In this document: positions 16,401 to 62,980 of the stretch, one piece after another | How the letters are laid out: the number at the start of each line of letters is the position of its first letter | Position numbering within the stretch: the stretch's first letter is position 1 | NCBI GenBank assembly: GCA_032622095.1 | Contig: CP136065.1 | Location: forward strand, 151,905,577 to 151,969,576 | Source of the DNA: Siphonodentalium dalli | Taxonomy: Eukaryota; Mollusca; Scaphopoda; Gadilida; Siphonodentaliidae | Direction of reading: 5' to 3' | Length of the DNA: 64,000 nt | Notes under the pieces: generated by a model | What the model was told of the DNA's origin: nothing | Seen by the model: only the letters and a program-made list of their open reading frames with translations | Databases searched by the model: none | Program-made: the position numbers and the translations under genes

Positions 16401-19400
16401 TGTGATGTACATGCAGTAACTGTATTCTTGCCAAATTTATGGTCTGCACTCTGCAGTCTTTCAAAAAACATGCTATGACCATGCCTACATATACATGTAC
16501 ACTGATTCTAACACTGTGATTGTCAGGTTATATTCTATGTTTGAGGAAAGTTACTATGTATTTTTCATTTGTGTTGCATTGTCAATATTAATAGGTCCCA
16601 GGAGCCCAGATGTTACTAGTGCAGAGCCCATCTAATTTGCATGAGACTGGTGTACTGCATGTCCATACTCCTAAATAAACATGACACTTATCACACCAAG
16701 AGTGCAAGACGTTATGGTGTCAATTTTCAACAACTGTTCTAGAATTATATTTAGACAAAAGCATGCCGTCAGGGCATGGCATAATATGCCCGTTTCTGGT
16801 GTAGAGTGGGGCATGTTAAGACAGAACCCATATTTGAACTTGATCTGTATACCAAATTTGGTTCAGTTCAATCGATTCATTCTAAAGTTATCATCTGGAA
16901 ACTGCATATCAGGTAAAATCTAAGTCGAAAAAGGGTCATAACTCAGTCAAAATCATGCGGATGAAATCCATATTCGAACTTGATCTGTATTTTGGTATGG
17001 TAAACTAACATGCCAAATTTGGTTCAGCTCACTCATTCAATCTAAAGTTATCATCCAGAAACCAAAAGCGGATGGACGGATGACAGATGGACAAACCATT
17101 TACATAATACGACTGATTTTTCAAACTGGCGTATAAAAAGACTCAACCATTATTTTCCACTGCCCTATATGTCACAATATATTCATATGGCAGTATTCAT
17201 CCCAAGTTAAGTGATGATGCTAATAAATTTGCTATCATACTCATGTGGAGCAAAGCGATCTGAACAAATCGAGGATAAACCACTACATGTGGAAAACATT
17301 AAAAAACATGTATATTGTGAAATATAATGAATGCTGGTTGTTACAAACTTGCCATAATTGAGATGACTATTCCTGTTGTTTACCAAACATCAGCGTACAC
17401 ATTATTAATTAAATATTTTGAAATATATATGTTTCTGAATGTTTCATACAGACTCTGGCTTTTGCATAAATCGCTCGGATTAGCCAAACTATGCAAAAAT
17501 TACCAACTTTAGGTAAACTGATGGTACTCTTTCTACACAGAATCGCTTTGACATACAAACATCATAGCAATCTAGCAGTACCCATCATGTTGATATAAAA
17601 TTAGCAGGACCACTTAACCTTGGGTGGTATTGAAAATGAAAATATCTTTAAAATGGTAAGTTATGTGGGCTTTTAGCTATTATGAAGAATTATGATAGTG
17701 AAATTATAGACCCTCATCTTCTTCATCCTGCAACTGCTGCAACTATCTTGGCCAATCAAAATTAATGTGGGACTGACAAAGGCCCATTCTACTATTGATT
17801 GAATAGTGATGATTCCATTATTTCCTAAATCTTTTTGTCAGATGAGTTGTCAATGATTACTTCTGAAATATATACTGGTATACATGTATATGGTCATCTC
17901 GCATCTGATTACAACATGTTTTTACTATGCACAGATGCAATATCATATTAAGAACGCAACATGTGGTTGCTTTATGAAGCAAACAGCTGGTCATTCCATT
18001 TAGTAAAAGTGTTTAGCATGTTCCATAGCTTGGTCACTTAAATCAGATCAGCTGCTAAATGTTCATAACAAATTTTGAAAACCATGTTCAATCTCTACAT
18101 TTCTGTTGATTAGAGCCCAATCATTACCTGAGTTTTGGTAAAGCACACCAATTTCCAAGGTATGTGTTGTGTGTCAGGGTCAATACATTCTCAGCAGCTA
18201 TTTCCAGCTAATACAATTGTGCGTGGTCAATTGTGCTCAATCAGAGTCAGTCAGAGCATGCGGATAGTTCTATACGAGAATAAATCTCGTCTTCGACTCA
18301 ATTGATCTGGCAAAAGAACTATGCTCTATAACCCTTACTTATTAAAATAAATTTCAAACTAATATGCAATTCAACATTAGAATACCATAAAAGACATACT
18401 GCTCTCCTGTTAGCTATAGTTTAAATGAACTGCCACATTGCGCTCATTTACAATGATATAAATGTGATATTATGTCATCCCATCTATAGCCATTTTGGCA
18501 GCCATCTCATATAAAAGGCAGTGAAATCAATATAAAAAGGATGAACTACTCATAAATACATGTATTTATTCATATCATAGCATTTGCTATCCTTGTTTAC
18601 AGCAGTGTTTGCACTACTAATCAATTACCTTAAAATTTATGATTTTGTCAAAATCTTGGTTATTGAGAAAATGTCAGTTTTTCAATCTACGGCCAATACA
18701 TTCCATCCAAAACCTTGTTGAACACTCATGGGTGGAAGCACAATGGTGCCGATACTTTAAAGTTGAAAAAAAACTCTATATGTTGCACTATTTTAAATAT
18801 TCTTGACTTTGCTCAATTTTTGCTAATTTTGAAGTTGGTCATTTTGGATTTTCAGGGTCAAGAGCTCCTTGAAGGTCAATCCCGTTCTAAAATGCTATAG
18901 AAAGTATCAGAAATGATATCTCTATGTGGCATTAATCCATATAGGACATTAAAATTCTAATTGGAGGGTCAACTTTGAGAAAAAAGAGCTGAACCCCAAA
19001 ATTGTGGTTCAGGCCCTTAAAAATAGAATTTGGGCCCCTTTTATAAAAAATCGGTCGGCACCACTGAATTCCTCATCGAAAAGTACTCTAGAATCAGTAT
19101 CAAACAGAAAGTGGTTGGATATTCCCAAAAGAGCCCAGTTGTGAGACCGACTAATTAGGCCACATTAAGTTAATTATATGTTTCTCAGGCACTTTTATTT
19201 TCAAAACAAGGGGGGGGAGGCAGGTATTTATTTTTATTATTATTGACCAAAATTTACCGGGAGGCAGGTTTTTATGTCTTAATTTTTATGGGGAAAATTT
19301 TGCGGGAGGCAGGTTTTTATACATGACTTTTTACAACAAATTTTATATTGGGAGGTGCGCTACGAGATGCCTGTTCCAGATTCAAGATGATGCCAAAATG

Positions 19401-38300: not shown

Positions 38301-41300
38301 CTGGAGCTTCCTGAAATTTTGCTAAAAATCCTGTGCCAATGCATTCTCTTATATATGCGAGTCTCCCCCAGGGAACCATGCATATATAAGAGAAGGAATT
38401 GGCCTAACAATAGTTACCTTCACCTTGTAAGCCAGTGCATTCTCTTATATATACTCACTCAAAGCATATAGTCCATTTTCAAAGTTTCCAGAAGTTTCCC
38501 TCTCAATGGTGTTCAGGATATCCCTTTGTGTTAGCTTGAAAATAAAAATAATTTTATTACATACTAATATAATAATAAATTAAGACAGTCAGGCAACGAT
38601 TTGGAGGGGTGTTCAGGATATACAGTATAAGCAGCCGACAGAAAAACGATATGAAAGCAGAAGGATTTCATATTCAGTTGTGGGAAGTGTTCAGATAATA
38701 AGTTCAACAAATGTTCAACACTGTTCTAAATTTGTGAGACCCAATACTGCATTCATCGGAAAGCTGTCAAGCCATATTTCCGACTAAATCCTGAAAAATT
38801 ACTCATAATTCTGCTGTGGTTAAGGAGTCGATTATTTAGGGCATTACTGTATATGCTAGCAGGGGGTTTGGGAGTCCCTGGACTACTGGATTGCTTTTTA
38901 CTGCAATCTAGATGACAGAACGCGTTGGCAACTCAACAAAAACAACATGTCCATAGTTTAGTACACCGGTTGATAATACAATGTTTTGGAGCTTCCTCTT
39001 TCAAATGGTATATAATATGGCATATATTTTATATAATGTAATCTGGGGGTTCGAAAATTAAGTGGGCCTTTAATCATTTTAACTATTAACTTGTGTTTAA
39101 GCATGCTAGCTATTATAACTTACACAACTGACATATATTTGAGACAACAAATTCTCGTATTGTTACTGATGGATAAAGCCTTTTAGTGATCCTAGAATGC
39201 ATCGAGAAAATGACCAAGCCTACAGCAAATGATGAGAGAGTTCTTTGTTCATATAAATACAGTTAAAGGTATTCAATCCGATTAAGCACCCCTAAATTAC
39301 TATTTCTTTGGCTCCAGGGGGAAAAAATATTTGAATCGAGTCAAGGAACCCACCCATTAAAGCTCAGAGTGATCAGATATTGATTTTTGAAGTTTGTTAT
39401 TTCTTGAGACGTGTACTAATAATTTCCCCAGAAACACTTATTCAAACGGACGAAGATGGATAACTCTAAAATCAAGTGGTAATAATGACACAATTTTGAC
39501 CGAGACCATCCCTTTGACGGCGAGTTTCTGGGCCACAAACAATAGAAATAACAAAACTTCAAAAATTGATATCTGATCACTCTGAGCGTTGATGTGCAAG
39601 GTTCCTCGACTCGATTCAAATATTTTTTACTCCCGAAGCCAAAGAAATAGTAATTTATGAGGGTCTGATCGGATTGAGTACCTTTAATCCACTGTGTTTA
39701 ATTACTTTTATTAATTATTTTTCATGCAATTGGCCCAAATGGCAGCGCGAACACTGGACATAGTTCATACCTTCACATATTCATCATACACCACTCGGGA
39801 GTGACAGTAGTCCTTCACTGCAAACACCCGAGTGAATGTCTCCTCATCTGTTCCTATGCTGTTCTCTCCCGCCTCGTATAGCTGCTCTGCATCTCGCTTT
39901 GCCCGTTCCACTTTGACGAGTTTTTCCATGTTAACCATGAACTGTCCACTTGGCTGTTCATCAGGTGTTAAAATGTCCTCACATGCATCCTCTACTTTAC
40001 TTCTAGATAACTCATTTCTGTTACCCTGCAAAATAGTAAGAGACAGACCTGAAAATTTGGTGCCAGAAATTTGCAGAATGAGGTCCCCATGCAGAGGGGT
40101 GGTTTAGTGATGCTATCATGCATAAGCGGGCTGTCATCATTAAATTCACCTTCTGGGGACCTCATTCTGTTTAGGCCTTATCTTCTCAGGAAAGTATCTT
40201 TATTATTTAGTTTCTTTAGAAACATCTTTAGAATTTTCTTTTTCTTTTTTTTTAGTTTAATAGTTTCTCTAGCTATATCCCCAAATTGGTAGATAACACA
40301 ATTGATGCATAATCACGGTGCCCAATGGGTGCACATTGCCATCTTCACCAGCTGGGAACTCAGATCTAGGTCTCTCATAGCAGCTAGATGAGGTCATGCA
40401 GAATGAGGTCACCAGAGGATAAATTTGGTGAAGCTAGCCTGATAGTGTCACTAAATTCACCTTCTTGGTACCTCATAGCAGATGAGGCCTTGCAGAATGA
40501 GGTCACCAGAGGATAAATTTGGTGAAGCTAGCCTGGTAGTGTCACTAAATTCACCTTCTTGGTACCTCATTCTTAAGGCCCAGCGAATCGATTCGATTCG
40601 ATGCGATTCAAAATCGTTTGTCTGATTCGATTCGATTCGAAATAGGCTACCATGATTCGGATTTCGTTGAATCTTTGGTGACGTGCATTTCCGTGCTTTC
40701 TACAGACCACAATGCTTTTACCAGAAAAGAAAATTCACTATAATAATGTAGTAAACAACTTAAACGTACACAAGTACCGTTATGACCAATGGCAGGAGAT
40801 GTAATGTTATCGCCAACTAGTCTATAATTAATTTGTAATAATGACATAAGTGAACAACAAAATTGCCATACAAGGCTATGTGCTTGTGTCATTCCAGGAA
40901 TCATGGGAATTCCATAACATACATGCATGCCAAATTATAGATCTTTGTTTAATTTGCATAAATGCTAGTCGGAATCAAGTCCTGAGTATTTTGTAAACAT
41001 TGTCTGGTAAGTCTTCCAGTTCAGGCGACAGACAACACAATCATCGCAAGTGTAGTGAAAAATACTGCGCTATTAAAAGAAAGGCTTGCCGTATTTACGT
41101 CGACATTGGTTCTCTCATGCATGTATGCTCTTATCTATACTCAACGATTGCTTAGGCACAGAAAATACATAGAGGTGTGTAGATAAACGCATATCTGCGC
41201 ATATTGCACTTCATCGACGATCACCAGACGGTTTTTGCCAGTCAATTTTAGGTGTTTTTCGAAGTTCTATATATTTGAAGTGATTTGGCTCAGTGACAAT

Positions 41301-44300
41301 GATTCGATTCGAGATTTGATTCGATTTCGAATCGTTTGCCAGATTCGATTCGAGATTCGATTCGAAATGAAAACACCCGATTCGCAGGGCCCTACTTGGG
41401 AGACATCTTCTCCCTAAAATGTGTCACTTCTCCCAAAGTGACCTCTCTCATGTACCAGTATGCATTTGTCCCAACAGAATATTTAAAGTATATTTACTGG
41501 TTATATAAATGGTGTTCTTATTCACTATACAATGGTTTTATAAATGGGCTCTTATATTGCATAATACTTTCAAAATTCAAAAGCGAATATTATTATGTGT
41601 ATTTTGGAGCCCAAACCGCCATGTGGCTTTAACCTTGATACGTGCACAAATTTGTTGCAGCTGGGGTTGCTTCCTCTTTGGAGGATGGGATTGACTACAG
41701 TAATGCCCTAAATAACGACTCCTTAACCACATTAGAATTATGGGTAATTTTTAAGGATTTAGTCGGAAATATGGCAGAGCTTTCCAATGGCAACAAGCCA
41801 TATTTCCGACTAAATCCTGAAAAATTACCCATAATTCTACTGTGGTTAAGGAGTCGATTATTTAGGGCATTACTGTATGGTGTCACATGCCCTATGACCG
41901 AGGTAATACTTTATGTGAAGTGCAATGAAACTATTTCACTGTATAATGCCCTATATAAACAGTGATATAAATTGAATTTATTATTAATATCATTATAATT
42001 ATGTGGTGAAACTTTTGTGTAGTATATGCACATAGACCTGCACGTCTGTTTCTGACCATCGGTTTAGAGCATGAGAATGATATAACGGTTAGCATAGCAT
42101 GGGAGGCACGAGAGACCTCAAGTGTAATCTTACGTGATAGCAAATGTGCCAAAAACTATTAGCTACATAATGTGCAGTTCTGTGTTTATTACAGACCCGA
42201 CTGACATCTCCTAGCTGATCTTATCTGAAGATTTTAAGTCGTGGTATTTTCTTATCTTGGGTGATATATATTAAATACAATATTTTCCTAAATAAGTAAA
42301 ATATATATCTCCTAGAAGTATTCTTGCCCACTGAACTATATGGTATATTATCCCAAGTAGGAGGGGTTAACTCTCAGAGTTGAAAAAAACGTACGAAATT
42401 CTATGGTACATATCTTCTGTCATGTTCTAAGGAAATGGAAATAGAAAAATACCCGTTGACAAGAAATCCCCAGCCGGGTATTATAAACCCAGGGATGGCT
42501 AAATACTAATACCGCACCTAACAGGCTAACCCAGGCAGCAAAAGCCGCAAGTAATAACGAAGACCCCCCTTAAAAACAATAGAACCAACCCCCGAACCAA
42601 ATCTTGAGTGGGTTGGGCCGTGTACCAGTACACGATGAGAGCCCGATGAAAAACCAGCTGCAAGCTCCCAAGAAAGGGCCCGACACCAACTACTTGGAGA
42701 CATGCCATTGTCGATAAGGAGGAGGTATCATTGACCAATAGTCTGACCGGGAAGCGAATGGGTATTACACAGACATACGTTGCAAGGCTCAGGCCGTATG
42801 AAGAACATGGCTCAGAATTGGAGTTTCACAGCAGAAAACTTAGTTTGAAGCCTGGAGTTCGAGATATGACCGACTAAGATGCAATAAGCCATGTCATTTT
42901 TCCCTGATGACGTTCCCAAATGTGGAAATGCCCAACAACACAGTTAAACCCAACTGACCAATCACAGGCTACTGAATCCATGACAGAAAGGCAGCCAGGA
43001 ACCGAAATTCCAATGTCGTTAAGGTGGAAATCCACAAAAACAAAAATTGGACTAACGATGCATCAGGATTGTGGCACAAGCCCAAAACCAGCAGAAACCG
43101 ACGGCAGGTATGTAATGAAAAGCAGACCAAGGGCCACCGCGCCCCAACTGTTCGAGCTCTGCTGACTGGTCCCCGACGAGTCGATGGCGCAAGATAACCC
43201 TTCTGGTAAGGATGGGGTGCCCTTTCAATGGGACCCTGTTCCGGAGACAACCATTGCCCGAAGTGCGAATCGAGAGGGCGGATCATATGATCTGGCATCC
43301 GACACCCAATGCTAATGAATCTCGCACGAGGAGAAGCATCTGGCAAGAATTTTCATCCGGCTTTATGAAGTGTGCCCAACACGATTCATATGCTGCCCCA
43401 CAGGTGCAACATTATCCTGCATTGGCAATCGCTGAGGTCAGCAAAGGACCTGGCTTAGTATGTTAAATGAGCACTAGGCGAATCAAGCACTATCAGGGAA
43501 AACAAAACCATTATGTACCGACAACCAAGCCCATAAGAAGAATGACGTATTAGACGCAAAGGCCGATATCACTGAAGCCATTTCGTTCTTCTTTTCCACG
43601 CTGCTAATACGCCGTGTTGCCCATTAAGCTCGAGTGGGGTGCTGAACTAGACCTCATGTCAACAGTGTTCTGAAATTGAGCATATGTCGAACCATGGATA
43701 ATGGACTCATCTATGTATGACAGGACAACAAAAGTGAAATCCATGTTGAGTTAGCACTGAAAGCAACCTGAAGACAAAATATATGTCATTCGTATCTATT
43801 ATGGAAACACAGCGAGGTCGGAGATAAAGCATGTATGCTTGTTTATCTCTGAATCTTGCGTCCCAAATTGAGATGTAAATATTTACCCTATCGAGCACCC
43901 GAACCAGTCCAGAACACGTCTTAAAAGTCAGGAAAATGAAAGGGCGAGAGTCATATACTAATCTAGTGATATGCATGACTATAGACATTCTCCAGCAAAG
44001 CCCGTGACCATGAAAGAGCTGGATGGAACATGGAAAGAAGCAACAACTTATAAAGTAAGAAGTTGAACACATCCCAACCCGAGAACAGTAAAATGTTTGA
44101 ATACCTCTCAGGATGGTCGAACCCAGGTCGCCAAGTGTGCAGTCCGATGGCACAACCACCCAGCTCTGACGACGTTAGGCAGGGTACAAATTGACCGGCA
44201 TCACAGGGCAAGTTGCTACCCAAATGCTAACAAAAGCCATGCAACTTGGATCCTATTTCCTCATTTGACTGTCCCAGGGTATGCCAACAGTCGTCCCGTA

Positions 44301-47300
44301 GTATCCGACTTGGAGTCCCTGTCGATAGTCCAGAAAGCCCACCAAATGCGGCCAATGGGTTCGATGGGTAGCCCCAACCCGCGACCTGTTTGGTGGGTCT
44401 ATCATCCTGAGTGCTAATTACGCCAATGAAGGGAACTCTATACATCGACAAGTGACAGTGTCCTGGTCGTAAAGGTTTCTATCTCTTCCTTGGAACCCTC
44501 GAAACAAGGGAAAGCACTCTGATGTTCTGTTAAATTGTAAATGATTGTAGAACAATGCTATCAAATCATGTCAATCTGAGGTTATTTGCTAATCAAAATT
44601 CGACATTAATTTTCTTCCTGCACTTGGCTGCATCAGAGAACACTGAACAACTAACTGAGCTCCCTCGTAAGCGCATGTAAAGGTGACCCGAAAGGAATGT
44701 CGAAAGCCCTTTCACCTCGTGCTGGAGCGACTGCTCGATCTGATCCTGATCTCCATCCGTCGATGGGGTGTTAACAGCACAATACACCACGACAAGCTTC
44801 ATTTCTAATTGCATGTGAGGTCTGGTCATTGGGGACCCCGGAGGAATGTCCAGAGCCTGTACATATCGGGGTGGAGCAGCAGCAGGACCGATCCCGATAT
44901 CCAACCGACCGAACTGGCGATTGGAGGTTAGTAGGTACCAGTTCCCAAGCAAGCTTCCTGCTATAATGGCGTCAGGGAATAAGATCTTTTGTTTTCATTT
45001 AAAATCAAACCCGAAGTTACTGGCAGCTGTTGGCCAGAATGTGGCCAGTAACCTGTCTGCCAAGCCCCCGGAAGTGGTGACTTATAATAAGGAGGAAACA
45101 AGCCTGTGAACTGTGATCCCATTCCAAGCCCAGCTGGGGCAGAAGGCATGGAGGATAAACTTTCAGGTGCCAAATAATTGCGTAAATGTAATAATTTGAG
45201 AAAAAGTCTCCTAATTTGAATTGAGACAAAGTAAAATGGCCATTCGACTAGTAATTTTAGCCCAAATTTCCACACACTATGATCATAAGGCACCGGAGAG
45301 CATGGTCAGGGACCACTGAGGGTGTATCCCCCAGCCGCGCTGACCCCGAGATGACGACTTGTAGCGATGGACGGCGTGTGTCGAGTGTTTTAGTAGAGCT
45401 CAGTGGTCACAGCACTCCGGGGCACGTCAACAGCCAACGGTCGACCCGCAGAAGCAGATTGACGTCCCGTTCGATAGTCCAGGGAGCGCACCAATGTGAC
45501 TAATGGGTTCAATGGGTAGCCCTAACCCGCGCCCTGTTTGGTGTGACTATCGGCCCGAGTGCTAATTACGCCAATTAGAGGAACACGATATATCGGCAAG
45601 TCAGAGAAGGATACAGGGATGTTTTGATACCTGTTACAGGTTTGGGTGCCCAAACTATAGAGACCCAAATGTCCCCAAATTCCATGTAGATAGTATTTAT
45701 TCCAGTTGGATCTTCCATATTTTCAAGGAATTTTTCTACAATTCAACAAAATGTCCTAGTAATGCAAATCATCAGCCCGCAGATGATATTATAGTCTATA
45801 ATATGGAGCCTTTATTTGCACAATCAAGTATCCCGTACTGAATATTTTAACATCAAAATTTATATGGGCACATACTCAAATACAGAACAGGTGTCCCCAA
45901 ACAAAAATTCTCTGGATCCTTCCCCGCGAGTTTGTCCGTGTCCTAGGGGAAGCAACTCGTGTGAGCTACGGGTTCGATGGGTAGCCCCAACCCGCGTCCT
46001 GTGTGGTGTGACTATCGCTCCGAGTGCTAATTACGCCAATTAGAGGAACCCTATATATCGACTTACGGGGAAGGCGATTCATGAACCTGTTCTTACCTCG
46101 ATGAGCAGTCCTGTGAAAGTAATTAATGTGATTACGAACAATCACAAATACACCTGTTGTGTTATGTTACCATGTCTGTGCCAACCAAGGCAGTAACAGC
46201 TCCATTGTTGGTTAAAAAGGTTCAAATTGACATTCAGGATTTTACAATCCTATCAGCGTATTCCACAAGCGTTAAAACAGTGCTTTTGTCTTCAGTTTTA
46301 CACCAGACGATGTTATTGTTAACGTCTAAATAAAGCCGTAAAACGAAAAAATGAACCCGAAAGTAAGTCACCTAATTTCGTGATACCTTTAACCACCGTC
46401 AACGCACGTGGTAACTTAAATTATACGTCACCTGTATGCCATAGATTTGTTATAAAGAAAACGATCAGCGTCTTTAGTCATATCCAATGGTGCCTCGAAT
46501 GTTCTGTCGTTAATAGGCCAGAAATTCTTACATTGTCGGCATAAACAACGGATATATTACTTCATTTGACCGATTAAAATTATGGAAGACAAAGTCCGTT
46601 AAAACGAAACGAGTCATCCATTTCCGATCTTATATTCGGAACAAAACCGCGTAATCTTTATGTGAATTGTTACATAATTTTCAACTATAAGCAAAGAAAT
46701 AATGTTGTTTGTATAAAACAAAAACAAAACTGTTTTTGCTATACAAACTGCAACTTAGCTTCGTATTCTTTGTGAGAGATTCTTTTTGCACCCGTCCTGG
46801 TGAGGAGGGAAAAAAATATGGCGATTCCTTCACTACGTGTCAGAAATCACGTGATTACACGGGTCATGAACATGACAGAAGATATGTACCATAGAATTTC
46901 GTACGTTTTTTTCAACTCGGAGAGTTAACCCCTCCTACTTGGGATAATATACCATATAGTTCAGTGGGCAAGATACCTTTGACGGAGATATAATTTTCAC
47001 TGTATTAGCAAATGTATAAAATCAATATATATTTTCCATATATATATTTTTCACAGTATTAGCATTGAATTATTTTCATTAATAAATAAGAAGAATTGGA
47101 TTTTGGATCAATACGTACAGAGCATCAAACTATTTATTATCACAATAATAATTGCAAGCTTAATATATTTAGCACTTATCCCATGTGACTCTTTTGTCAT
47201 TCACATTATAACCTCAGATAATGAGAAATGCTAAATACATGCTGGCATATTACAGGTGGGTAACTAGATTAGTTAGCAATCACAGTATGAGTAATCCTGA

Positions 47301-50300
47301 TTAAAAGTCACAACTAGGTTCAAAAACACTAGTCCTGAGTTGCTATACTCAAAACCAATCCACTACTATGAAAACCCAATAGTCCACTAGATCACCAATT
47401 AACCCGTTCTATACCAAATACTCATTGATGAGTAGTTCCCTTTATGAAATGTTCAGATATTTTGTTCAACAAATGGTCATTTGTTGAACTTATTACTCTC
47501 AGGTGCTTAATAATCATGATGGCCCAATAATAGTGATGGGTGGGGATTTAGGCTGAAATTAACAATAGAGATGGCAATTTCACTCTATGTTTCAATGCCA
47601 AATAATAGTGAGCTTTGGGAATTTTCTCAAAAATTAATAATCCTGCTGACACTATTATTAGGCACCTGAGAGTATCTGAATATTTCCCACCAAAGAATAT
47701 TAATCATTCTGCCCTTATATTATCCTTTCATCATACCGTTGTCTGCTAATTTATGCTTAATAACCCCTCCAAATGATTAATAGACAATTCCAATGCATAC
47801 TTTTAGAACTGATGAGAAAATCAATTACTCTTGGGCTCCAAATAAACATGCATGCACGTTTATTATTTTCTTGGGAAATTTCCCCCTGCTTACTTGGGTC
47901 TGCACGTTTGTTAATTTTGAGGCTATGAAAATTGAAATCAGCACAAACTCAAGATTTCTAAATGATTCTGATATCAAAATGATGAGATTATAACTTTATG
48001 CATGTACATATACAAATATATGGCATACATATGAACATTTAATTGATATAGAATAAAACACCACATGACACATACATGTACTATGTTGATTCCTATACTT
48101 GACCTACTATAAAAATAATTTGTTTAACCACAGTTATGTTAATGTTTTGCCCAGAGCCCCCCCCCCCCCCCCAACACTATTATTTGGGTCTGCACTTATA
48201 TTAACTTTCAATGGTATTCCCCCCCCCCTGCACTATTATTTGGGCCTGCACTTTTATTTGGAGCCCGAGAGTACTCACCTGTGCTGCTGATATCAAGATC
48301 CGCTTGAAGTCACCAGAGGTATCACCTTCCAAATCCTCTTCTAAGTTTGTCTGATCTGATCGATTTGGACTTGTCACTTAATATAAATAAGAAATTCATA
48401 CAAAATTAAATTTGTAATAATTTATTTTCTTAATTAGGACCAGAAGCCCATTTTGACAAAATTTACCAGCATTTCAAAATGGATTTTCTCAAAATCTGCC
48501 TTCTTTTTTAAATTTGGTACAAGCGATTATTGTAGCACAATATTTCAGAACCACCAAACCGTTGGAAATTATAACCTCATTTTCTTTACTTTCAAAAGTG
48601 AAGTTCATATATCCATGAAATATCATATCAAAAGATCATGAATGGAGACATAATTTTTCTTGATTCATGATAATTTTTATTTGGAAAGGCAACTACCCAT
48701 AAATAATTTTCTATATCTGAAACAATATTTTCATGTCATTGACATTGTTGATCAATAATTAATCCCAAGAAACAAACATGTTCTTGTTCGAAATGACACC
48801 TAGTAGCTGAAATAATAAGCGATGAATTGTGATGAAACTATCACCTCAATTAGTTAAATTGTCACACAAAATTAATGTAGTTTTATATGCTGGGAATATC
48901 CCGTTTGTGATGTTATGTGTCAAATGTACCAGATAATTTTATTTGTCACAAACTGAAGATCATATTGCACCAGAATTTGTCAATGTTCTTCTTATTGATA
49001 GATGATAATATCTGAGACATAATACCTTCTGGATAGATATCCCTAATTGCTTGTAACTGAGCATTTGTTCGTGTAAAGAGAACCTCTATAAGGGCAGTCT
49101 CGTCTGTTCCAAGGCCCTGAAAAAGTAAACATGATGCATTAATAAAAGTAGCAATGCTGATACTTAGAGGTTATAATTTGGATAGTTTGATATTGGTCGA
49201 GATATAAGCCCGAGGTAACTTTATAAATTATGTCAGCCTGAGAGCGAAGGTCAAAGGCTAATATATGTATTGAGAGCTAATATATCTCAACCAATGTCAA
49301 ACTAACCTTATAATAACCTTGTTGTTATTTTAGATCAACTAAAATACCATTACCAACCATCAAGACATCATTTGATTGGTGTTAAGATTGAATAAACAAC
49401 AGATTATAGAATTTAATTGAAATACCCAATTCACCTGAAAAGTTACCATAACATTGCATACAGCCATAAATGACAATCAATAGATATGGTAGACTTTTAC
49501 CAGAAACCATCGAAAAACAAACAGATATAATACATGATTGTTGGTCCTTTCAACTGATGTTGGTATAATAGGGTCAATCTGGTCATCTGAGGAATTATCC
49601 AAAAACAAAACTGAGGGAAAAAAAGCCTATTGTATCTGACTGCATGATAATGACACTGTAGGTCATCTTGGAGAGGGGATAATTTCATGAGTTACAGTAA
49701 ATGGAGCGATTAGGAATGCGGAAAGTTAAATGTCTAAGTAACAATTGTGAACATTAAGAGATACATGTATTTATAAATTAAAATCCAAGATGGCTGCAGG
49801 AAGCCATGTTTTTCATAAAAATTTCGGAAAAATTTGATGGCTCCAATCACCCCGAAGTTTCATATGAAGTTTGGCAATGGTAATGATGAGGGAGGTGCCC
49901 TGTAGGGGGTGACAAAGGTTTTAGTCATGCGAAGAGTAAAATCCAAGATGGCTGTTGGCGGTCATGTTTTTCAACAAAATTCAGATAGAAATTGATGGCT
50001 CCCATCTAGATGTCACCCTGAAGAACCATATGAAGTTGGGTGATGATCGTATGAGGGATGTGGTCTGTAGGGTGTGCCAAAGAATTTAGTCGTGCAAAGA
50101 GTAAATTGCAAGTGGCCATGTTTTTCATCGAAATGTTTTCAAATTCGATAGCTCTCATCTAAACATGCCTATAAATTTTCCAAACAATTCTCAAAAAAAT
50201 GTGGGTTGCATGGTGTGCTGATGGATTCAAATTTGAAATCCAAGTTGGCTGCTTGTGCCATATTTTTTAACGAATTTCTGCCAAAATTGGACGATGGACA

Positions 50301-53300
50301 CCAACCCATTGTCGCTAGCTCAAACTTGACTTTGTCAAGTTGAGCTAAAAAATTATCAGAAATAGCACATAGACTTCTTGTGGCGTAATATTTACCAACC
50401 CTTTGACACAAGGAATTTGCAATTGTACCATGCAATGTACCTAATAATAGTGATTAATAATAGTGTCAGCACGATTATTAATTTGGCATTGAGACATAGA
50501 GAAATCACTATTATTAATTTCATCCCCACCCATCACTATTATTAGGCCATCACTATTATCAGTTACCTGAGAGTTGTATGGTATAGTAATGCTCTAATTA
50601 ATCGACTCCTTAACCACAGCAGAATTATGGGTAACTTTTCAGGATTTAGTCGGAAATATGATATTTTAAAAAATATAATATATATTTCCTTAAAGAAAGC
50701 CTGAACACTGAACTATATGGATAGATGTCCTGCGTTTGTAAACCATAGCAGAAAAGGGTTAACTTTTTGGTCGGTCGCCTACGGTAACTAATGGTCAGTG
50801 GCTTGCCTCGGTATCAGTCACGCATGCGCAGTCCCAATATAATTCACTGTACAGGTTGAATTAGCCAGTTTATTTTCAACTCAATTAGAAGATTGGCGAG
50901 TCGCGGGGTTGGGAATGGCACCGCCATGGGAGGGCCCTATGATAGTTCAGTGTTCAGGCTTTCTTTAAGGAAATATATATTATATTTTTAAAAATATCAT
51001 ATTTCCGCCAAAGGAAGCCCTCACACTGAACTATATGGATTAGAATGCAAGCCCAGGAGGAGGCACGAGCAATAAAGTTAATAGCCAAACTTTGAGTAAA
51101 GGTACTCTTCTAAAACAGATTGTACCATATATGAACACTTTAATGAATCTGTTAGGATTATTTACGTGAAATAACTCATATAGTTAGAGTGCTATATTGC
51201 TCAAATGTGTACTGCCCCCCTTGTTTTGAAACAAACATCCCATGAGGTGCCATCCAATGCATAGTTGCGAGCGAACCGAGCAAGTATAACGTTAGAAGAA
51301 ACTCTTCGTTCCTCTCTGTGTCGTCTTCTTCAGCTGTCTGTTCTAAGGTCCCACCCGTCAAGGTCCCATGATGCAGGATCATGAAGGAAGGAGACTAACT
51401 CACTCTCCGCCTTAGCGACAGAACGACCTGCAGACGGAGGCCCACTCCATCGATGGCGAGACAACCTAAGTTAACTAACTGCTATTCGCCAAAGAAAAAG
51501 CCAGAGAACCTGATGCCAAATTTGTGGCACAGGGATTGAGTTGAGAACCCATTAGGCCAAACAGGTTGTACAACGATAATGGAGTCAAGCCATCTGAACA
51601 GAGGGAGCCCTCTCTGAGGTACCTATGCAACACAGGATATCCGACAGAAATCCTGTGATACAAATCTTACGAGTATATAAACAGTCCTTCCCATGAGGAA
51701 AACACACCGAGAGCATTTATTTGCTCCCGTAATGCAGAAGACGGGTGTAATATGGCACCCATACGATACCATAATTGTACATGTAAGTTTGGTTTTTGCT
51801 CAAACCAAAAGTCATTGTGGAATAGACCTATGTCTAGTTACACTTTAATATGCCATAGTTGCACTGAGATGGTAAAGCATCTAAATAAACCTTAAAATTA
51901 GAGCTGAAACGGTTAGACGGTTAACCGGTTAGCATCCGGTTAGCGACGTAACCGGTTAGAAAAATATGAACCGGACGTAACCGCATCCCGTTGTCAGTTG
52001 AATGTGAACGTGAATAATCCTCAAAATATTAGGTTAAATGATGCAAAACTAATACTAAATCCTGTGTCACCGATAGTAGAGTGCAATGCAAGCATTAATT
52101 GGTACACGCGGTAGTATCAGATACTTAGTAGCAATTCTCGAACTGTCTGGAAGTGTCGGCGACCTTCAATCAATTCCGACCCTTTGAAGTTTTCTTCCGA
52201 CAAAAGCATGTGTGCAGTCACTATGTATCAAGCAACATGGATTCAAATTGGAGTCACACCACGACATACTATATATAAAACTGTTTTACAGTGGGGTTTA
52301 TAAAAACTATGTAAGTCGACAAAGTTTGAAGATTGAGATCAGCAGCACAATGTCTTCACTCTTCCCGTTCTTCCCCCCTGTTGTGATTTAATATGATCAA
52401 TTCAATTGAGTGACCCAACAGACATCGTAGTTGAAGCAACCCAAAACTTCTTCAATAATCTTCCCTTTTATCAAGGAAATTGATGCTCCATGCTACTCTG
52501 TAACTGGTTGTGTCTGTGGGACTAATTAACACTCAATTTGGCAGTAATTGCTATATGTTAAGTGATTGCATACTAAAACCGAAACCGAAATCGTAAATTA
52601 TATAACCTCCCAACACTAGTGTCCGCTATCATGATACCGACGAATAGCTCGAATACTGAATAGGACTGCGAGTCTGACCTAACTGACCTTCCTTTTTGTT
52701 CTCTACATGTAGTTATTACTTTCTTGTCTTTATATATAATGCATTGGAGGATATACCAATGATGATAATGATATATTACAGATATTTAATATATAGTTTT
52801 GTTACTCGTTTTACCAATACCCATACTATTTTACTCGTTTTACAAATGCCCAAACATATGCTGATCACGGCAAATAAGCGATCTCCCCTGCCATTCACAA
52901 ATTTCACTTGCTCATTCCCCATCACTAGAGCCAGCAAAAGAACAGTTAATGCGTGTTTTTGAATATCGTTAAATGCCGTGAATAATAAGGTCTTTATTTC
53001 AGCTACTACTTCTCACCTAGGTTTGTCCCTGGAGCATGGCATAATGTCGACATAATTAGTGTGAGAGAAGTCCGCTAGAAATTTAGCGGTTAACCGGTTG
53101 AAATCCGGTTAACCCCGATGGTTAACCGGTTAGAAGAATGGGTCAACCGTTTCAGCTCTACTTAAAATAGTTCAATATTGAACCAACAATTACAGTCTCC
53201 ATTAGTATTTTGTGAAGAAGGACGGGTGCGAATTTTAGCACACGTGAATTGAAAATTACGAGTGCATACGGGTTCGAGAGCAATCACTCCCGTCTCCTGG

Positions 53301-56300
53301 GAAGGACTGATATAAATATATAAAAATGATATAAAAATTATATATCAAGGTGATCTATAAGTCACAATGAGATCATTGCAGAAGGCCCTTTGGCTCTTTG
53401 ACAACTGAAATCAGTTCAAATGATGTACAATGTAATCAGATGATAACCACGGGTAAATTGTCACCATGCGGAATATTCAGTTCGGAGCCTCCGCCCAGTA
53501 CATCATGTCACTTTCCCCCTCAAACATGCAGCAGAACGACATAGGTGTGTGATATGTTAGTGTGAGGCATGCAGCAAACTAGGGGAAGACCCCCTCCAAA
53601 AAGGCTCGCTGATTAAGGAAACAAATGAAATTTTTTATCCTCCTAGTAAAGGACACACATCCCTTTATAATGTTGTTACTTATTGAATTTTAAGAGCCAT
53701 GATGGAGAGGAGCTCCCCCGACCTAAGTGGTCCTGTTGAAGGCATGTTTAAGGAAAATAGGACAAATCCAGCATAGACCGAAGCGAGCAGAGTTGTCAGC
53801 ATGATCTCAGGCCCTTATGATTGGGCGGCTGGTGCCATGTGGTTGGGATCCCCTCATATGGGTTGGTCCCTGCCTGCAAGGAAAGGTTTGATGGCTAGTC
53901 AAAGAGCTTCCTCGAAAGCTGAGCTGGACAACGCAAACGTCTTTGCCTGTTTTTTATTGTCGAATGTTGATAGGACAATTCCGGCATATACCGAAGCGCG
54001 CAGAGTTGGCAGCATGGTTTCAGGCCCGTATGATCGGGTGCCATGGGGTTGGGATCCACTCGGACTGGGTGGTCCCCTGCCTGCAAAGAAAGGTCTATAA
54101 CGCTAGTCAATGAGCTTCCTAGAAAGCTGAGATGGACAGTGCAAACGTCTTTGCCCGCGTTATTGTCTATTGTCTATAGGCGTGCAGTGCCCTGTTAATT
54201 TTATTACCATGTGCCAGATAATCAAATTGATATTGGTAATAGTAGTATGAAGAGCCATGAGATGTACTCTGTCGGCCAGGCCATTGGCAGGGTCGTTGTG
54301 GCACGTGACAAGAGAAATGCTTTCCATGTAAATGTGCTTCATTCATGTGTGAAGTCTATTGACCAGTGTGTCAGTTGCGGGTCGTGTCACTTACCTATGA
54401 AATGTATATCACAGGTAAGATAGATCGTGTTCTCGATGCATTTTGAAGACGGTGGTACGAGTGCGCAGGGCGAGCCAGGCGAGCTTGAGAGTACATAGTT
54501 CAGTAGGAAGAAGCATATAGATGAGATAATCCGTGGATAGGAAATCACGATCCGCAGCTTCTGCCTTACCGATGCCAGACTGTGACGACCGAAAAGACCC
54601 ACAGTCTGACGTATTGTGCGCAGACGGGTCGTCATCGAAAGCCTCAGACGCCTTGGGGTGTAAGGATAGCATGTCGCTCTCTGCCCTAGCGTCGGAACGA
54701 CCTGCAATAATGGACGACAAAACACTAGAGGGAGGCCCATTCCGGCGATGGCTCAATTGAGGAGTAAATACCTCCCATGGAATTTTAAGGCTGATAAACT
54801 GAGTTCCAATTTTGGAGTCCAGTGTCGAAATGAAGAATCCCATAGCCATTAGCCAAAACTGGTTTCTTCTGATAACCGGAAGGAGGTGGAGCCATCGGAC
54901 CGGGGTGAGCCCCCCCCCCCCAAATGCAGGTGGTCCCGACCAAGCTGAATGTCCTGTCCAAGCAGAACGATGGGTAGAGGCCATTGCAGCAGAAACCCCA
55001 AGACGGCTGAGAGGCAGGCAAGGCCGTGTCTTTATATAGATCGTGACCAAGGGGACCGGGCTTGCTACCTCATGGATAGGGCCACTGCCCTATGCCGAAG
55101 TCGCCGTAGGCCGCCCAGCCGGTGTTGTTACGTTCGCACGCGATTTTGGCAACTTCAGCACACAGAACCGCTTGCGCCGGTGTGGGACCAAATGTCCTGG
55201 GGGTCCCAAGTACCCCTGCATCGCCACCGGTCGCTTCCCCACTAATTGATTTAATGCCGCGGCATAATCGGGGGAGCGTGAACTGTTCCTGCCCGAGAAG
55301 AGATCCGCCCGAGAAATACTACCTGGGAAGGATCCAGAGATGGTGCAAATAAAGGCTCTATATCATACTAGTAGACTATCTCATCCGATTTTCATGTTTA
55401 GTTGTTGAATTATTCTTCTCTTAGAAAAATTTGTTGAAATAATGGAGAACCACTTTAATAATTACTATCCCCAGGGTCTCCAGAGTTTGAGCGCCCAAAC
55501 CTGTAGCAGGTAGAAAAACATCCCTGGATCCTTCTCAGAAATTTACAAGCCCACCGGTTCAGACCGGCTTGCTGAACCGGCTGGTGTATAATCGCAGCTA
55601 TTGTTCATTAGACCTACCGCCATACTTAAAGTAATTAACCACCAATAACGTGGTGTCACCCAGTTAATATGGCGGTACTATACCGCGGTATCCTCCAACA
55701 CCGCGGCACCGATACCGCTTGTTAACGCGAACAAGCATGCGCGAGTAAATACCTCCCCTAAAAGAGTTCCATGAAAATCACCGCGGTATTCCACAAAATT
55801 AATGCGGTGCCCGCTAAAAGACCACTGTATCATCACCCAATACCGTAACTTCACGCCATGACCGTCTCGATACCGCTACCGTTTATTACCGGTATCACCG
55901 CGGTCATGACCGGGGTATCACCCCGTTTCTCTGGTCAATCACTTTGAGAATAGCGGTATATACAAGGTAGCTATTAATCGACATACCTCTATGACATGGC
56001 TGAGATTTATTCGTAGCACTACGGTACTACTGTCATATGAAGTTATTGTTATGCATGTGACATTGATAAACCAAGATCTAATCAACTGTCAGTATTCTTG
56101 GGTAGATTGTAATCAACTTCAAGGTCAAACGTGATTAACACATCTGGATCATTTGTATTGAAACATAGTATTATGTGAAAGCACGTTGTTCATAACATGA
56201 CGAGAGATAGCGTCAGTAGCGATGGAATTATTGTTAAATAAATTTCCACGCATTAAAACGTCAAAATAATTCCCACGAAATTATGATATTTCCGGCGGAG

Positions 56301-59300
56301 AATCACGTGGCATTTTTGATATCTGACAAATTCAATCATACCTTATAGGTGCTATAATAATTCCATAGATGTATTTCTCACAATAATCTGTGCGCCTCGT
56401 AAGGCCTTGAAATGGTATCTGGTTTTGCCATTGATAAACCAAGATGTTAATGTTATCAACTTTAAGTTCGAATGTGACCAACACATCTGGATCAGTGGTA
56501 TAGAACCATAAAACAACAAAGTATTATGAGAAAGAATGTTGTTCATAACATTATGATAGATAGCGTCAGTAGCGATGGTAATTATTGCTAAATAAATGTC
56601 CACGCGTAAATAAATTCCCACGAAATTAGGAGACTTCCGTTAGAGAATCACGTGGCATTTTTCATATCTGACAAATTATATCATACCTTATAGGTTCTAT
56701 AATAATTACATAGATGAATTGTTCACAGTAGTCTATGCGCCTCGTAAGGCCTTGAAATGGCGGCTGATTATGGCGAAATGTGCGCCTCGTATCGATTTTC
56801 ATATTCGAAAATTTTGAAGTCAGCCGCCTATTCGAAAAACACGAACAATTATATGTTTGAAACGAAACGGTCCGTGAATTCGAAACGATAATTATAAAAA
56901 CGAACGCGTAGGCGACCAGTAATTATTGTATCGATAAATTGAATTTGTCGCTATTGTTAAACGACAAATTCGGAAAAATACTCCCTTATGATCCGTTCGG
57001 TTGTAGCAGAAAAATAAACTGGCTAATTCAACCTGTACAGTGAATTATATTGGGACTGCGCATGCGTGACTGATACCGAGGCAAGCCACTGACCATTAGT
57101 TACCGTAGGCGACCGACCAAAAAGTTAACCCTTTTCTGCTATGGTTTACAAACGCAGGACATCTATCCATATAGTTCAGTGTGAGGGCTTCCTTTGGCGG
57201 AAATATGGCTTGTTGCCATTCATCGGAAAGCTCTCAGCGAGAGCTTTTCAATGAATGGCAACAAGCCATATTTCCGACTAAATCCTGAAAAGTTACCCAT
57301 AAGTCTGCTGTGGTTATGGAGTCGATTAATTAGAGCATTACTGTACTTTCAAATGATGTGACTCATTCCCATTAGTTGTAATACTCACATATATAGCTTC
57401 TTTCAGGCACCATGCATCAAATTCTGCTGGTTGAACAAACATTGCCATGATGGCCTCCTCAAAGTTACCACTTAAGTCATCTTGTATATCTTCTATTAGG
57501 TCCTGTATGAAATAAAACCATACCTGGATAACATCATCGTAGTCTAGGCTAGACAAGGAGGTTGTGGTTTTGGACCCCAACATGGGCAAAAATTTATATA
57601 GATTTTCAAGCTTCATCTGAGTTGAGTCATTTCAACACGTCAATCTAATCGTAACATGGTCATTTTGATAAAAAATTATCATTTGTTCATGCACATTACG
57701 AAGCTATGAACAGCCCATCCTGAGCCAGTGGATTATCCATTCTCATATGTTATTATAATGTTAATATCTACGTGGTATCAATAGGGCGAAGTAATCAAGG
57801 TCATAATCCATATCATATCAAGTTGTTAAAGGAAAGATAAAAAAAAATATTTTTGCTGATATTTTAATTACAGTCAATTTGGCTCAAACAAAAACAAAGA
57901 ATTAATAATAAACATTAATTATAAACATAAAACTGAATTAAAAATGCTCTCAATTTTTTGTTTATACAAGTGAGATTGAATAGACCGTTTCCTGATTAAA
58001 ATTTCCGATTCATTACTATAATTGGTTAAGCATGTGTTATATTGTAACTGCAAACTCAGTAAAAATGCAGCAATAATGCTTTGGGTGCCCCGACGAAGAT
58101 CCCTATACTACAAACTGTAGCAGGAACTGATTACATGTACACCAATATGATGCAAAGTGCATATTCGCTAAATATGTTGCAAATCTTCAATGTGTCAAGA
58201 AAGGGTCAATAACTCTAAAATAAAAAACATAAAACATTTCTATGTCGAAAAATGGCAATAACTCTGCCAAAATGACTTCAACTGAACTCAAAATTGCAGG
58301 TACACAGGTTCCCATGCTGGTTGATATCTGTGCCAGGTTTAAAAAAAATTGACTGAAAAATGACAGAATACAGGATCAGACAAAAGATGAGTCCCAGGAT
58401 GTACGATTGTATGTCGAAAAAGGGCAATAACTCTGCCAAAATGACTCAAAATCGCAGGTGCGCAGTTTCCCATGCTGGTGGACATCTGTGCCAAGTTTTT
58501 TAAAAATTGACCAGAAAATGACAGAATACAGGCTCGGACAAAGCTCAGGATGGACAGACTGGCGGACGAGGGTGACTACTATAGTCATCTGACAGGGACA
58601 CTTATCCATGTACCAGTAGATAAGATTTGATATCCCTCCTCATGACTGTTTGAAGTACAAAGACTAAACAAATTAAATACACACATACCCTTCCATACAT
58701 TGTTTTGTACATCTTTTTCAACTCCTGGCGCTGTGCATTACATCGTGTGGTGCACACCTGAATGATTGCATCCTCATCGGTACCTGCAGAGGAAGAGCAC
58801 CACCAAATATATTTATCATTATGTCAATTTTTAAGGTAACACATCCATGGTGAATAAAATTCCTCAGGGGAAAAGAGGACCATGCTTGAAACGATTTTTT
58901 CCTCATTATCTTGTGATGAGAATCACTATGAGTTACAACCCCCCCTCCCCAACCTACAAGAAATACAAGCTCGGACAAAATAATGCATGTTGCGAAAAAC
59001 AACTCTAAGTAGAACACAGACACTTCATAGGTGACCGCAGAAGTGAAAACAATAGACGGGCGGAAAAGTCTATATTTTTAACAGGATGTGTTTATTTCCC
59101 TGGCCGCTGTAGCTTTCTACTGAGCATGTCTTATAAGCCAGAGCCGTTAGGCTACAGCTGGCTACAGCCTGCACGCTCAAATATAGCCACTATTTCTCAG
59201 CTGTTCAAAGCATTGTATTATTTTATATAACATGCATGTATCTCACATTAGCTGTATAAAACTCTGTTTAGGTATATATATTTATAAAATAAACACAAAT

Positions 59301-60494: not shown

Positions 60495-62980
60495 TTGACA
60501 TAGTTGACTTTACTCAGTTGTTTTGGGAAATTATTTACCAAAATATTATCAAATAGGATCAACAAATATCTAGAAGAACATGAAGTAATGAAAGAAAATC
60601 AATCCGGTTTCAGAAAAGGATATTCCACAGTTGATAATATCTTTGTTCTTCACATGCTGACAGAAATTACTAGGTCACTCAACAGAAGCTTATATTGTGC
60701 ATTCATTGATTTTGAAAAAGCATTTGATAAAGTATGGAGACAGGGACTATGGCACAAACTTCTATCTAACGGTGTTAATGGAAAAATATTTAAAGTCATT
60801 TGCAATATGTACTCGAACATTAAGTCCAAAGTTCAACTAGGAAATGAGCACTCCAATTACTTTCCGTGTTTATCTGGTGTCCGACAAGGTGAGAATCTTT
60901 CACCAATACTCTTTGCACTGTACGTAAACGACTTGGAATCTTATCTGACAAATACAGGAGTTATTGGTCTGCCAAAATTGTCGAATGATATTGAAAACAA
61001 TTTGAACATCTATATGAAACTTTTTGTAATTTTGTATGCAGATGATACTGTACTAATGGCAGAAACACCTACAAAATTGCAAACTGCTTTGGATTCATTC
61101 TATAAGTACTGTGAAATGTGGAAATTAACAGTTAATGTCGATAAAACTAAAATAATGTTGATATCAAAGCGTAGCCTTCCAAAAAAGAGAAAATTTTTCT
61201 ATAATGGGAGGGAAATTGAAGTTGTTAAAAAATTTAATTACCTGGGAATAATACATACTAAATCTGGTTCATATACGGAGGCAAAGAAGGTGCTTGTAGA
61301 TAAAGCCACTAGAGCAATGTACGCTATAATCACCAAATCAAGAGCACACTGCCTTTCGGTAAAGGACCAATTTGATTTATTTGATGCACAAGTTGTACCC
61401 ATACTTGCTTATGGATCTGAAATTTGGGGTACAGGAAATAATGATATAATTGAGAATATACATAGAAAATTTTGTAAGTTTATTTTACGGCTAAAACCAT
61501 CCACATGCAATTATATGTTGTATGGAGAGAGCGGCCGTATGCCAATTGATATATTAATAAACATGCGCGTGGTGAAGTATTGGTTGAAAGTAGTAAATAT
61601 GAATTGTAATAGATATTGTAAAATATTATATATGTTGGCGCTAAAACTCAGTAATGTCTCATCCTCTAATTTCACGTGGATAAACAAAGTTAAGCAAACT
61701 TTAACAGAATGTGGTCAGATCCACTTAATGGATATAGGTAAAATTCCCTGTACTGAGCGATTACTCTCATACATTGAGTGCAACCTTATTTGTAGATTCC
61801 GAAATAAATGGAAAAATGATATAGAAGCCTCGGGCAGTAGGGGAATTATATACAAAATGTTCAAACAAGATATCAATTTTGAAGATTACTTGAGCATTCT
61901 TGATACCAGAAACCGGTTAACATTATGCAGATTCCGTACATGTAACCACCAGCTACCTATAGAGACGGGCCGATGGAATAATATTGATATCGCTGACAGA
62001 ATATGCCCAAAGTGTCACAAATACATTGGTGATGAATTTCATTATTTATTGGAATGTGAGTTCTTTACGGATGTAAGAAAACGCCTTTTACAACCAAAAT
62101 ATAGTAGACGAATAAATGCTACCGCGATAAATGAAATTCTCAATATGAAGAATCCCATATTACTACGCAGACTTTGTTCTTTCATTCGGATCATCACGAA
62201 CGTATTATCAGATCACAATTAATGCATCGAAATCTCTCGTCATGAATCTGTCTAATTTTGATCTGCTATGATATATGTGTATAGTCGAGCAGACGACACG
62301 GATTAACATTCATTAATCTATGGTGATGGTCAGATTCGGGATTTGACAGAAAGTCTCAAACTTTCTGCTGAATTTAGCTAGCTGAGCATCCACATTGATG
62401 AATGGATGTGAACCAAGAATTAAAGTAAATACCTGCCAACAAGCGCAATGAGGATTCAAGTATATTTACATTTATATCAGTTATAATTGATTATTTAAAT
62501 AGTCATACGTTATGACATTGATACTTGGCTTTTATGTAGGTATATTAGTATATATGTATGGTTCCCGGAATCAATTATACGATAGTCACTAGTGAACGAT
62601 ATGGCAATCATCGATGGTATAAATACTAAATTGACGACCTACATGTAGTAACCTATTATTTGTACTTAAATCTAAACACATGTGTGACTGTGAAGACATC
62701 AACCTTTTATGTCAGCGTTGCGACTAAATAGTTTACTCCAACCAACAAGGTTTCACACGAGATTGCGCCGTCATTACTCTTGGCGAAAATAAGCTACAGT
62801 AGCGATGTCAGAATAAAACTCGGAATATACATTCATCGAATTTCAACATACCATCGACCCGGAACCATATGTACATATCTATTGTATAATATTTCTATAT
62901 ATCTATTGTTTATATAATTCTATATCTCAATATCCTTATGTTATACATGTATTAACTTGGATGAGAGAATAAAGCATTGG
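60495..62980 (+). mobile_element. 5'-truncated LINE (jockey/CR1 group)
   Basis: The truncation point near 60495 joins a family d MITE. A 3' UTR of about 750 bp may run to near 62980, where AATAAA (62968-62973) precedes GCATTGG. No poly(A) tail or target duplication was identified, so the 3' limit is provisional. Confidence 0.6.
60504..62222 (+). CDS. non-LTR retrotransposon reverse transcriptase, 5'-truncated
   Basis: 572 codons open from just after an in-frame TAG to TAA at 62220-62222. It starts within the first reverse transcriptase block (TLLSCFGKLFTKILSNRINK). Downstream are FIDFEKAFDKVW (67-78), GVRQGENLSP (125-134, Glu where Cys or Asp is usual) and YADDT (178-182) with the two catalytic Asp. 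A C-terminal CxxC...H...C cluster (C501, C504, H513, C518) matches the zinc-like motif of jockey/CR1-group LINEs. The missing part would hold the endonuclease and ORF1. No internal stop suggests a young insertion. It lacks the sequence needed for autonomous movement. Confidence 0.93.
   Translation: MTLLSCFGKLFTKILSNRINKYLEEHEVMKENQSGFRKGYSTVDNIFVLHMLTEITRSLNRSLYCAFIDFEKAFDKVWRQGLWHKLLSNGVNGKIFKVICNMYSNIKSKVQLGNEHSNYFPCLSGVRQGENLSPILFALYVNDLESYLTNTGVIGLPKLSNDIENNLNIYMKLFVILYADDTVLMAETPTKLQTALDSFYKYCEMWKLTVNVDKTKIMLISKRSLPKKRKFFYNGREIEVVKKFNYLGIIHTKSGSYTEAKKVLVDKATRAMYAIITKSRAHCLSVKDQFDLFDAQVVPILAYGSEIWGTGNNDIIENIHRKFCKFILRLKPSTCNYMLYGESGRMPIDILINMRVVKYWLKVVNMNCNRYCKILYMLALKLSNVSSSNFTWINKVKQTLTECGQIHLMDIGKIPCTERLLSYIECNLICRFRNKWKNDIEASGSRGIIYKMFKQDINFEDYLSILDTRNRLTLCRFRTCNHQLPIETGRWNNIDIADRICPKCHKYIGDEFHYLLECEFFTDVRKRLLQPKYSRRINATAINEILNMKNPILLRRLCSFIRIITNVLSDHN

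Follow-up and report, generated by a model that had tools for sequence, protein, structure and literature searches.

Introduction

Two large elements bounded by the same short terminal motif lie close together in the genome of the scaphopod Siphonodentalium dalli, and the question that they raise is whether such shared ends around different interiors define an undescribed superfamily of DNA transposons. We analyzed a 64 kb stretch of contig CP136065.1 (positions 151,905,577 to 151,969,576; hereafter the window, with coordinates counted from its first nucleotide), the content of which is eukaryotic. A first-pass annotation of this DNA had described the two elements, X1 and X2, and had proposed the new superfamily. 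Our results support the shared ends with largely unrelated cargo, which points to mobilization in trans, as that annotation had suggested, as the likely mode of movement. X2 as originally drawn contains a third pair of ends and is read here as a small element, S, followed by X2 proper. We consider it reasonably probable that all three belong to a single group of related DNA transposons which are non-autonomous, moved in trans and pasted into TA dinucleotides. The evidence base consists of three insertions in this one window.

The shared terminal module

The 15-mer CACTGAACTATATGG, referred to below as the core, occurs in five exact copies in the window (at 42329, 50706 and 51024 on the plus strand and at 46952 and 57167 on the minus strand), every one of which is placed in an inverted-repeat end; the terminal motif reported for X1 and X2 is thus borne out. 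When up to three mismatches are allowed 11 matches are found, compared with a shuffle mean of 2.16, and none of 100 shuffles reaches 11. A sixth end, at the right of S, carries only the first 11 core bases, CACTGAACTAT. All six ends have the same layout, consisting of a TA, a tip reading TYTCC, 21–22 variable bases and the core CACTGAACTAT(ATGG). The TA adjoins the tip at six of six ends, so that TA followed directly by TYTCC is read at each of them. An alignment of the six ends contains 20 invariant columns, 11 of which are the core, and exact copies of the string TATYTCCGYCAAAGG stand at three ends, namely the right end of X1 and both ends of X2.

The outer arms, i.e. the segments outside the core, were compared by plain global alignment with a null of 4000 pairs. 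Within elements the two arms are identical in S (22/22) and in X2 (22/22) and match at 18/24 positions in X1. Likeness also extends across elements, with 15/23 identities between S and X2 (P = 0.0025) and 14/22 between X1 right and X2 (P = 0.005). The TTAAC block that had been placed about 40 bp inside the motif is found at that distance in X1 (about 38 bp inside the core start), but it lies 53 bp inside in S left and X2 right and is absent from X2 left. The longest string shared in this region is nine bases (GGGTTAACT) and the likeness is weak, because 193 of 5000 random pairs share nine or more.

S and X2 read as two elements

The third pair of ends lies at 50942–51038. Since a right end and a left end both fall within this short segment, we read S and X2 as separate elements, with S followed by 28 bases and then by X2. 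The left end of S and the right end of X2 carry a 185-nt repeat in opposite orientations.

Target site and the interrupted MITE

The composite of S and X2 interrupts a palindromic, TA-flanked miniature inverted-repeat transposable element (MITE; M2, 50584–57343), two further copies of which are present in the window (M1, 41698–41875, with tips CAGTAATGCCC, and M3, 38768–38851). The MITE site GTCGGAAATATGGC is present in four of four uninterrupted arms (both arms of M1, the right arm of M2 and M3). In M2 the site is divided around the composite, with GTCGGAAATA on the left and TATGGC on the right, and the single TA of the uninterrupted arms is replaced by a TA on both sides. A TA duplication explains the split MITE site and fits all six tips. 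The MITE arm and the right tip region of X2 also have CGGAAATATG in common.

In the mechanism that we propose, the terminal module (TYTCC, 21–22 bases and the core) would be the likely binding site, as predicted from the ends, of one transposase encoded elsewhere. Excision would take place at the tips, and each insertion would use a TA dinucleotide as its target and leave it duplicated. Any DNA between two terminal modules could then travel, which would account for the differing, non-coding-looking interiors. One arm of the hairpin MITE would have received X2 at a TA, and S would have entered the TA that borders X2 on the left, or a position next to it. The coordinates of the features are collected in Table 1.

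Table 1. Features of X1, S and X2 and of their surroundings (window coordinates).
Feature	Start	End	Strand	Remarks
MITE M1	41698	41875	+	Uninterrupted site GTCGGAAATATGGC on both arms
X1, 4681 bp	42308	46988		TA next to each tip (TCTCC.../...GGAGA)
X1 left inner inverted repeat, 106 nt	42322	42427	+	99% complementary to right arm
Core CACTGAACTATATGG, X1 left	42329	42343	+	Exact match
114-nt unit in X1, three diverged copies	44345	46071	+	Copies at 44345, 45493 and 45958
X1 right inner inverted repeat, 106 nt	46868	46973	-	Pairs with left arm
Core, X1 right	46952	46966	-	Exact match
Annexin exon stretch between X1 and X2	48994	49122	-	Pfam PF00191; coordinates derived from residue range
Left part of MITE M2	50584	50658	+	Up to TA holding S and X2; end points read from sequence
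S with AT-rich inverted flanks	50659	50999		TA at 50657-50658 and 51000-51001
S, 289-bp small relative	50685	50973		Identical 22-nt outer arms; first 11 core bases at both ends
185-nt repeat, S left end	50692	50876	+	98% complementary to X2 right
Core, S left	50706	50720	+	Exact match
First 11 core bases CACTGAACTAT, S right	50942	50952	-
X2 proper, 6202 bp	51002	57203		Tips TTTCCGCC.../...GGCGGAAA; TA at 51000-51001 and 57204-57205
Core, X2 left	51024	51038	+	Exact match
185-nt repeat, X2 right	57011	57195	-	Partner of S left repeat
Core, X2 right	57167	57181	-	Exact match
Right part of MITE M2	57204	57343	+	Resumes after X2; end points read from sequence

Interiors and coding capacity

The interiors of X1 and X2 have G+C contents of 45.1 and 43.0%, respectively, compared with 36.5% in positions 1–40000 of the window, in agreement with their description as relatively G+C-rich. 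They had also been described as different, and they are indeed largely unrelated, but one stretch is common to both in opposite orientation (45601–45825/55339–55539, 68% identity at the DNA level); when the interiors were translated and compared with the whole window, the stretch near 45600–45835/55329–55543 was again the only one recovered. Duplicated units are present within the X2 interior, and about 0.4 kb inside its right end lie two tandem copies (81%) of an A+T-rich unit of about 330 nt (56108–56772). In X1, the copies of the 114-nt unit have a strongly conserved center and diverged flanks, and Rfam had nothing to match them even with E values of up to 1. A segment of the X1 interior (45159–45291) resembles DNA just outside the element (47522–47673) in opposite orientation, with 68% identity over 152 columns.

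Frame-by-frame Pfam scans covered the three elements, the DNA separating X1 from S and the intervals 6399–13466 and 14967–19154; elsewhere, nine chosen frames were used. Six-frame scans of X1 (42322–46973), S and X2 found no family at its cut-off, in keeping with the earlier statement that no transposase is recognizable, and the lone sub-threshold match, in X2 (E = 0.18), is unrelated. The stretch between X1 and S likewise contains no transposase domain in six frames. The same method recovers the annexin exon at 48994–49122. Three-base periodicity is not clear in X1 and X2 (signals of 0.9 and 2.0, compared with 3.2 for a reverse-transcriptase frame in the window), and the longest frame of X1 is reached by 17.5% of 200 shuffles. 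Rfam gave nothing at gathering score in the window; the five sub-threshold matches in 42300–57210 (best E = 0.31) were taken as chance.

Outside the window, the X1 interior had no match among plasmids and the X2 interior none among plasmids and phages. No related end came to light when viral and prokaryote contigs were scanned for exact patterns. The pattern CAAAGG-N8-10-CACTGAACTATA is present in six prokaryote stretches and one viral stretch, none of which carries the full 15-mer. This absence says little, because relatives of a eukaryotic transposon are to be sought in other collections. A literature text search for CACTGAACTATA did not find it, and for five shorter strings the matches listed had unrelated titles.

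Weighing of the transposon reading and its alternatives

Several observations weigh against three TA-pasting transposons. The MITE insertion is the only one that is informative on duplication, and the direct repeat there may be as long as 10 bp (CGGAAATATG); X1 has no such repeat at the corresponding positions. The flanks of X1 and S are AT-rich and so uninformative in this respect. The flanks beyond the tips of X1 and S also form inverted repeats (scores of 18 and 33.5; P = 0.004 for X1 and 0/4000 for S, with the most AT-rich sites as the null), and for this reason the tips of the two elements may lie further out, or their targets may have been palindromic; the X2 flanks are not inverted repeats (score of 4). 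Outer-arm likeness across elements is uneven, with 13/22 for X1 left and S (P = 0.02), 13/23 for X1 right and S (P = 0.05) and 10/23 for X1 left and X2 (P = 0.6), which are not alike. Identity between ends switches at the core: the two ends of X1 match at 83/85 positions inside it and at 18/24 outside, S left and X2 right match at 85/85 inside and 15/23 outside, and the paired ends of S and of X2, each identical outside, have no alignable match inside. Descent of whole ends does not predict this switch; the inner identity would be accounted for if gene conversion had acted on inverted arms within a single locus. If the elements are taken to end at NCACTG, a 2-bp duplication (GC) stands one base outside CACTG in X1, and in X2, taken as a single element, GA is found at that same offset, or TGA if the offset is shifted. 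Open frames of at least 60 residues are in excess of shuffles in both X1 (29 versus 21.8, s.d. 3.1) and X2 (34 versus 23.2, s.d. 3.9), and a 226-residue frame in X2 is reached by 1/200 shuffles (0.5%), so that coding remnants of an unfamiliar protein may be present. This frame had no match in a PDB sequence search and none in Pfam at cut-off.

X2 could instead be a single 6.5 kb element (50685–57203) with the 185-nt repeats as its inner arms, in which case 50942–51038 would be a trapped inverted junction (right end, TA, left end) as in a circle or tandem dimer. This arrangement, which can hold together with the other readings, would make X1 and X2 alike (long inner arms of 98–99% identity and outer arms of about 65–75%), its junction agrees with the borders given by the MITE site, and both elements would have a 2-bp duplication (GC and GA) one base outside CACTG. 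It requires, however, an extra rearrangement with breaks exactly at the core on both sides, whereas two neighboring elements require none, and we regard it as unlikely, if far from negligible.

If the mobile unit ran only as far as CACTG...CAGTG, or one base further, and the outer arms were palindromic target DNA, the elements would stand near the CMC clade (CACTA/EnSpm, Mirage and Chapaev), for which PMC12730594 gives terminal CA...TG and direct duplications of 2–5 bp. The core begins with CACTG, inverted at opposite ends, and the switch of identity at the core in four pairings is what such a unit would leave. The CMC transposase is marked by C(2)C and H(3-4)H motifs, and no enzyme was recognized in X1, S or X2. 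The short duplications near CACTG favor it somewhat, because an element of the CACTA kind would give them, and GC in X1 and GA in a single-element X2 stand at the same offset. S and X2 as separate elements, however, have no duplication near CACTG except GC five bases out, and X1 has none of 3 bp or more. The inverted arms moreover go on for 21–22 nt or more outside CACTG, and their likeness across insertions (X1 right/X2 and S/X2) is unexpected for random targets. Taken together, this makes a CAC-ended unit rather improbable.

Outer arms might also be exchanged against inner repeats at the core CACTGAACTAT, which would then be a junction, because either a mobile unit ends there and enters the centers of loosely alike palindromes or end modules are swapped between elements. 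Entry into random palindromes agrees with the dissimilar outer arms of X1 left and X2, but not with the significant likeness of X1 right to X2 and of S to X2, and we would be surprised if the core acted in this way. If it did, sites would be chosen or ends built in a manner that is unusual among eukaryotic DNA transposons; the finding would have greater weight if genome-wide copies sat in mid-palindrome or swapped outer arms at the core.

It is very improbable that a site-specific recombinase integrated a circle by way of the 10-bp CGGAAATATG: this string is found to the left and to the right and, in inverted form, also at the internal junction, but X1 has no 10-bp duplication at matching positions and six-frame Pfam scans of X1 and X2 found no recombinase domain. 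That the 15-mer is no end signal but a chance resemblance, a possibility raised in the first-pass annotation, can practically be dismissed, because five exact copies in 64 kb all lie at inverted-repeat ends, even though the 15-mer also has 37 matches in 37 stretches of viral contigs, and for none of these matches does the DNA examined (for long contigs, part of the contig) contain an inverted partner. Many of these viral stretches have the same surrounding sequence, a pattern expected of homologous phage genes.

Relation to known transposon groups

Three transposons moved in trans would resemble Tc1/mariner (IS630-Tc1-mariner) elements in combining a TA target with inverted repeats. The arms at the tips of S, X2 and X1 provide the terminal inverted repeats that this group needs, and TA stands beside all six tips, with the MITE site, the sole informative one, also allowing up to 10 bp. 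A DDE/D transposase is absent from X1, S and X2 at the Pfam cut-off, as expected for non-autonomous copies. TYTCC is not known as the tip of animal Tc1/mariner members. On account of the TA at the tips a Tc1/mariner transposase is the most economical guess at the enzyme, not an established assignment, and we consider it possible rather than probable. PMC7325037 describes the TA target and the inverted repeats of the group, which in some Tc1 elements reach several hundred base pairs, and gives about 1.3 kb as typical of Tc1 and mariner, in contrast to X1 and X2, which are far longer at 4.7–6.2 kb. A TA duplication is not unique to this group, because the fungal groups PHISTA and ESTA duplicate TA too, as stated in PMC12730594; there they are described by their transposases, whereas X1, S and X2 are read from their ends alone. 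KolobokP elements, as outlined in PMC9587614, have long terminal direct repeats and resemble S and X2 in their composite-looking arrangement, and Kolobok elements make TTAA duplications. This candidate was rejected, as the arms of X1, S and X2 are inverted and TA-flanked and there is no TTAA beside the tips.

An undescribed superfamily for X1 and X2 is therefore unsupported rather than refuted, because known groups can accommodate inverted-repeat elements that are flanked by TA and lack a transposase and because superfamilies are told apart by their enzyme, which X1, S and X2 lack. A missing transposase in non-autonomous copies is no evidence for a new enzyme. If the favored reading is true, the elements add one more group of large non-autonomous transposons with a shared transposase-binding end, which helps in annotation of the host genome.

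Genomic setting and other repeats

The annexin repeat between X1 and X2 (minus strand) scores 33.6 bits in a six-frame Pfam scan, compared with a cut-off of 25, and annexin matches below the cut-off are found at 39765–40103 (22.1 bits), 57338–57631 (19.8 bits) and near 48288–48353 (14.6 bits). The first and middle annexin stretches enclose X1, and X2 is enclosed by the middle and last ones. The two had been assigned to introns of one gene, and because the exon at 48994–49122 separates them they occupy different introns of apparently one annexin gene.

Other inverted repeats are present in the window. The pair 6399–6554/13311–13466 (156 nt, 88%) has tips GTTAACCCTTTCATGA, which are reminiscent of piggyBac-like ends. 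A second pair (14967–15306/18815–19154; 340 nt, 89%) starts with TTAGTCGGTCTCACAACTGGGC and has 3.5 kb between its arms. Six-frame scans of 6399–13466 and of 14967–19154 gave no Pfam family with an E value of 0.1 or below. A hairpin repeat at 14252–14814 starts with TTAAAGGTACTCAATCC and has related pieces at 39260, 39600 and 60228. A 572-residue open frame on the plus strand (60504–62222) contains a reverse-transcriptase domain (RVT_1, E = 8.7e-37) and is probably part of a retrotransposon.

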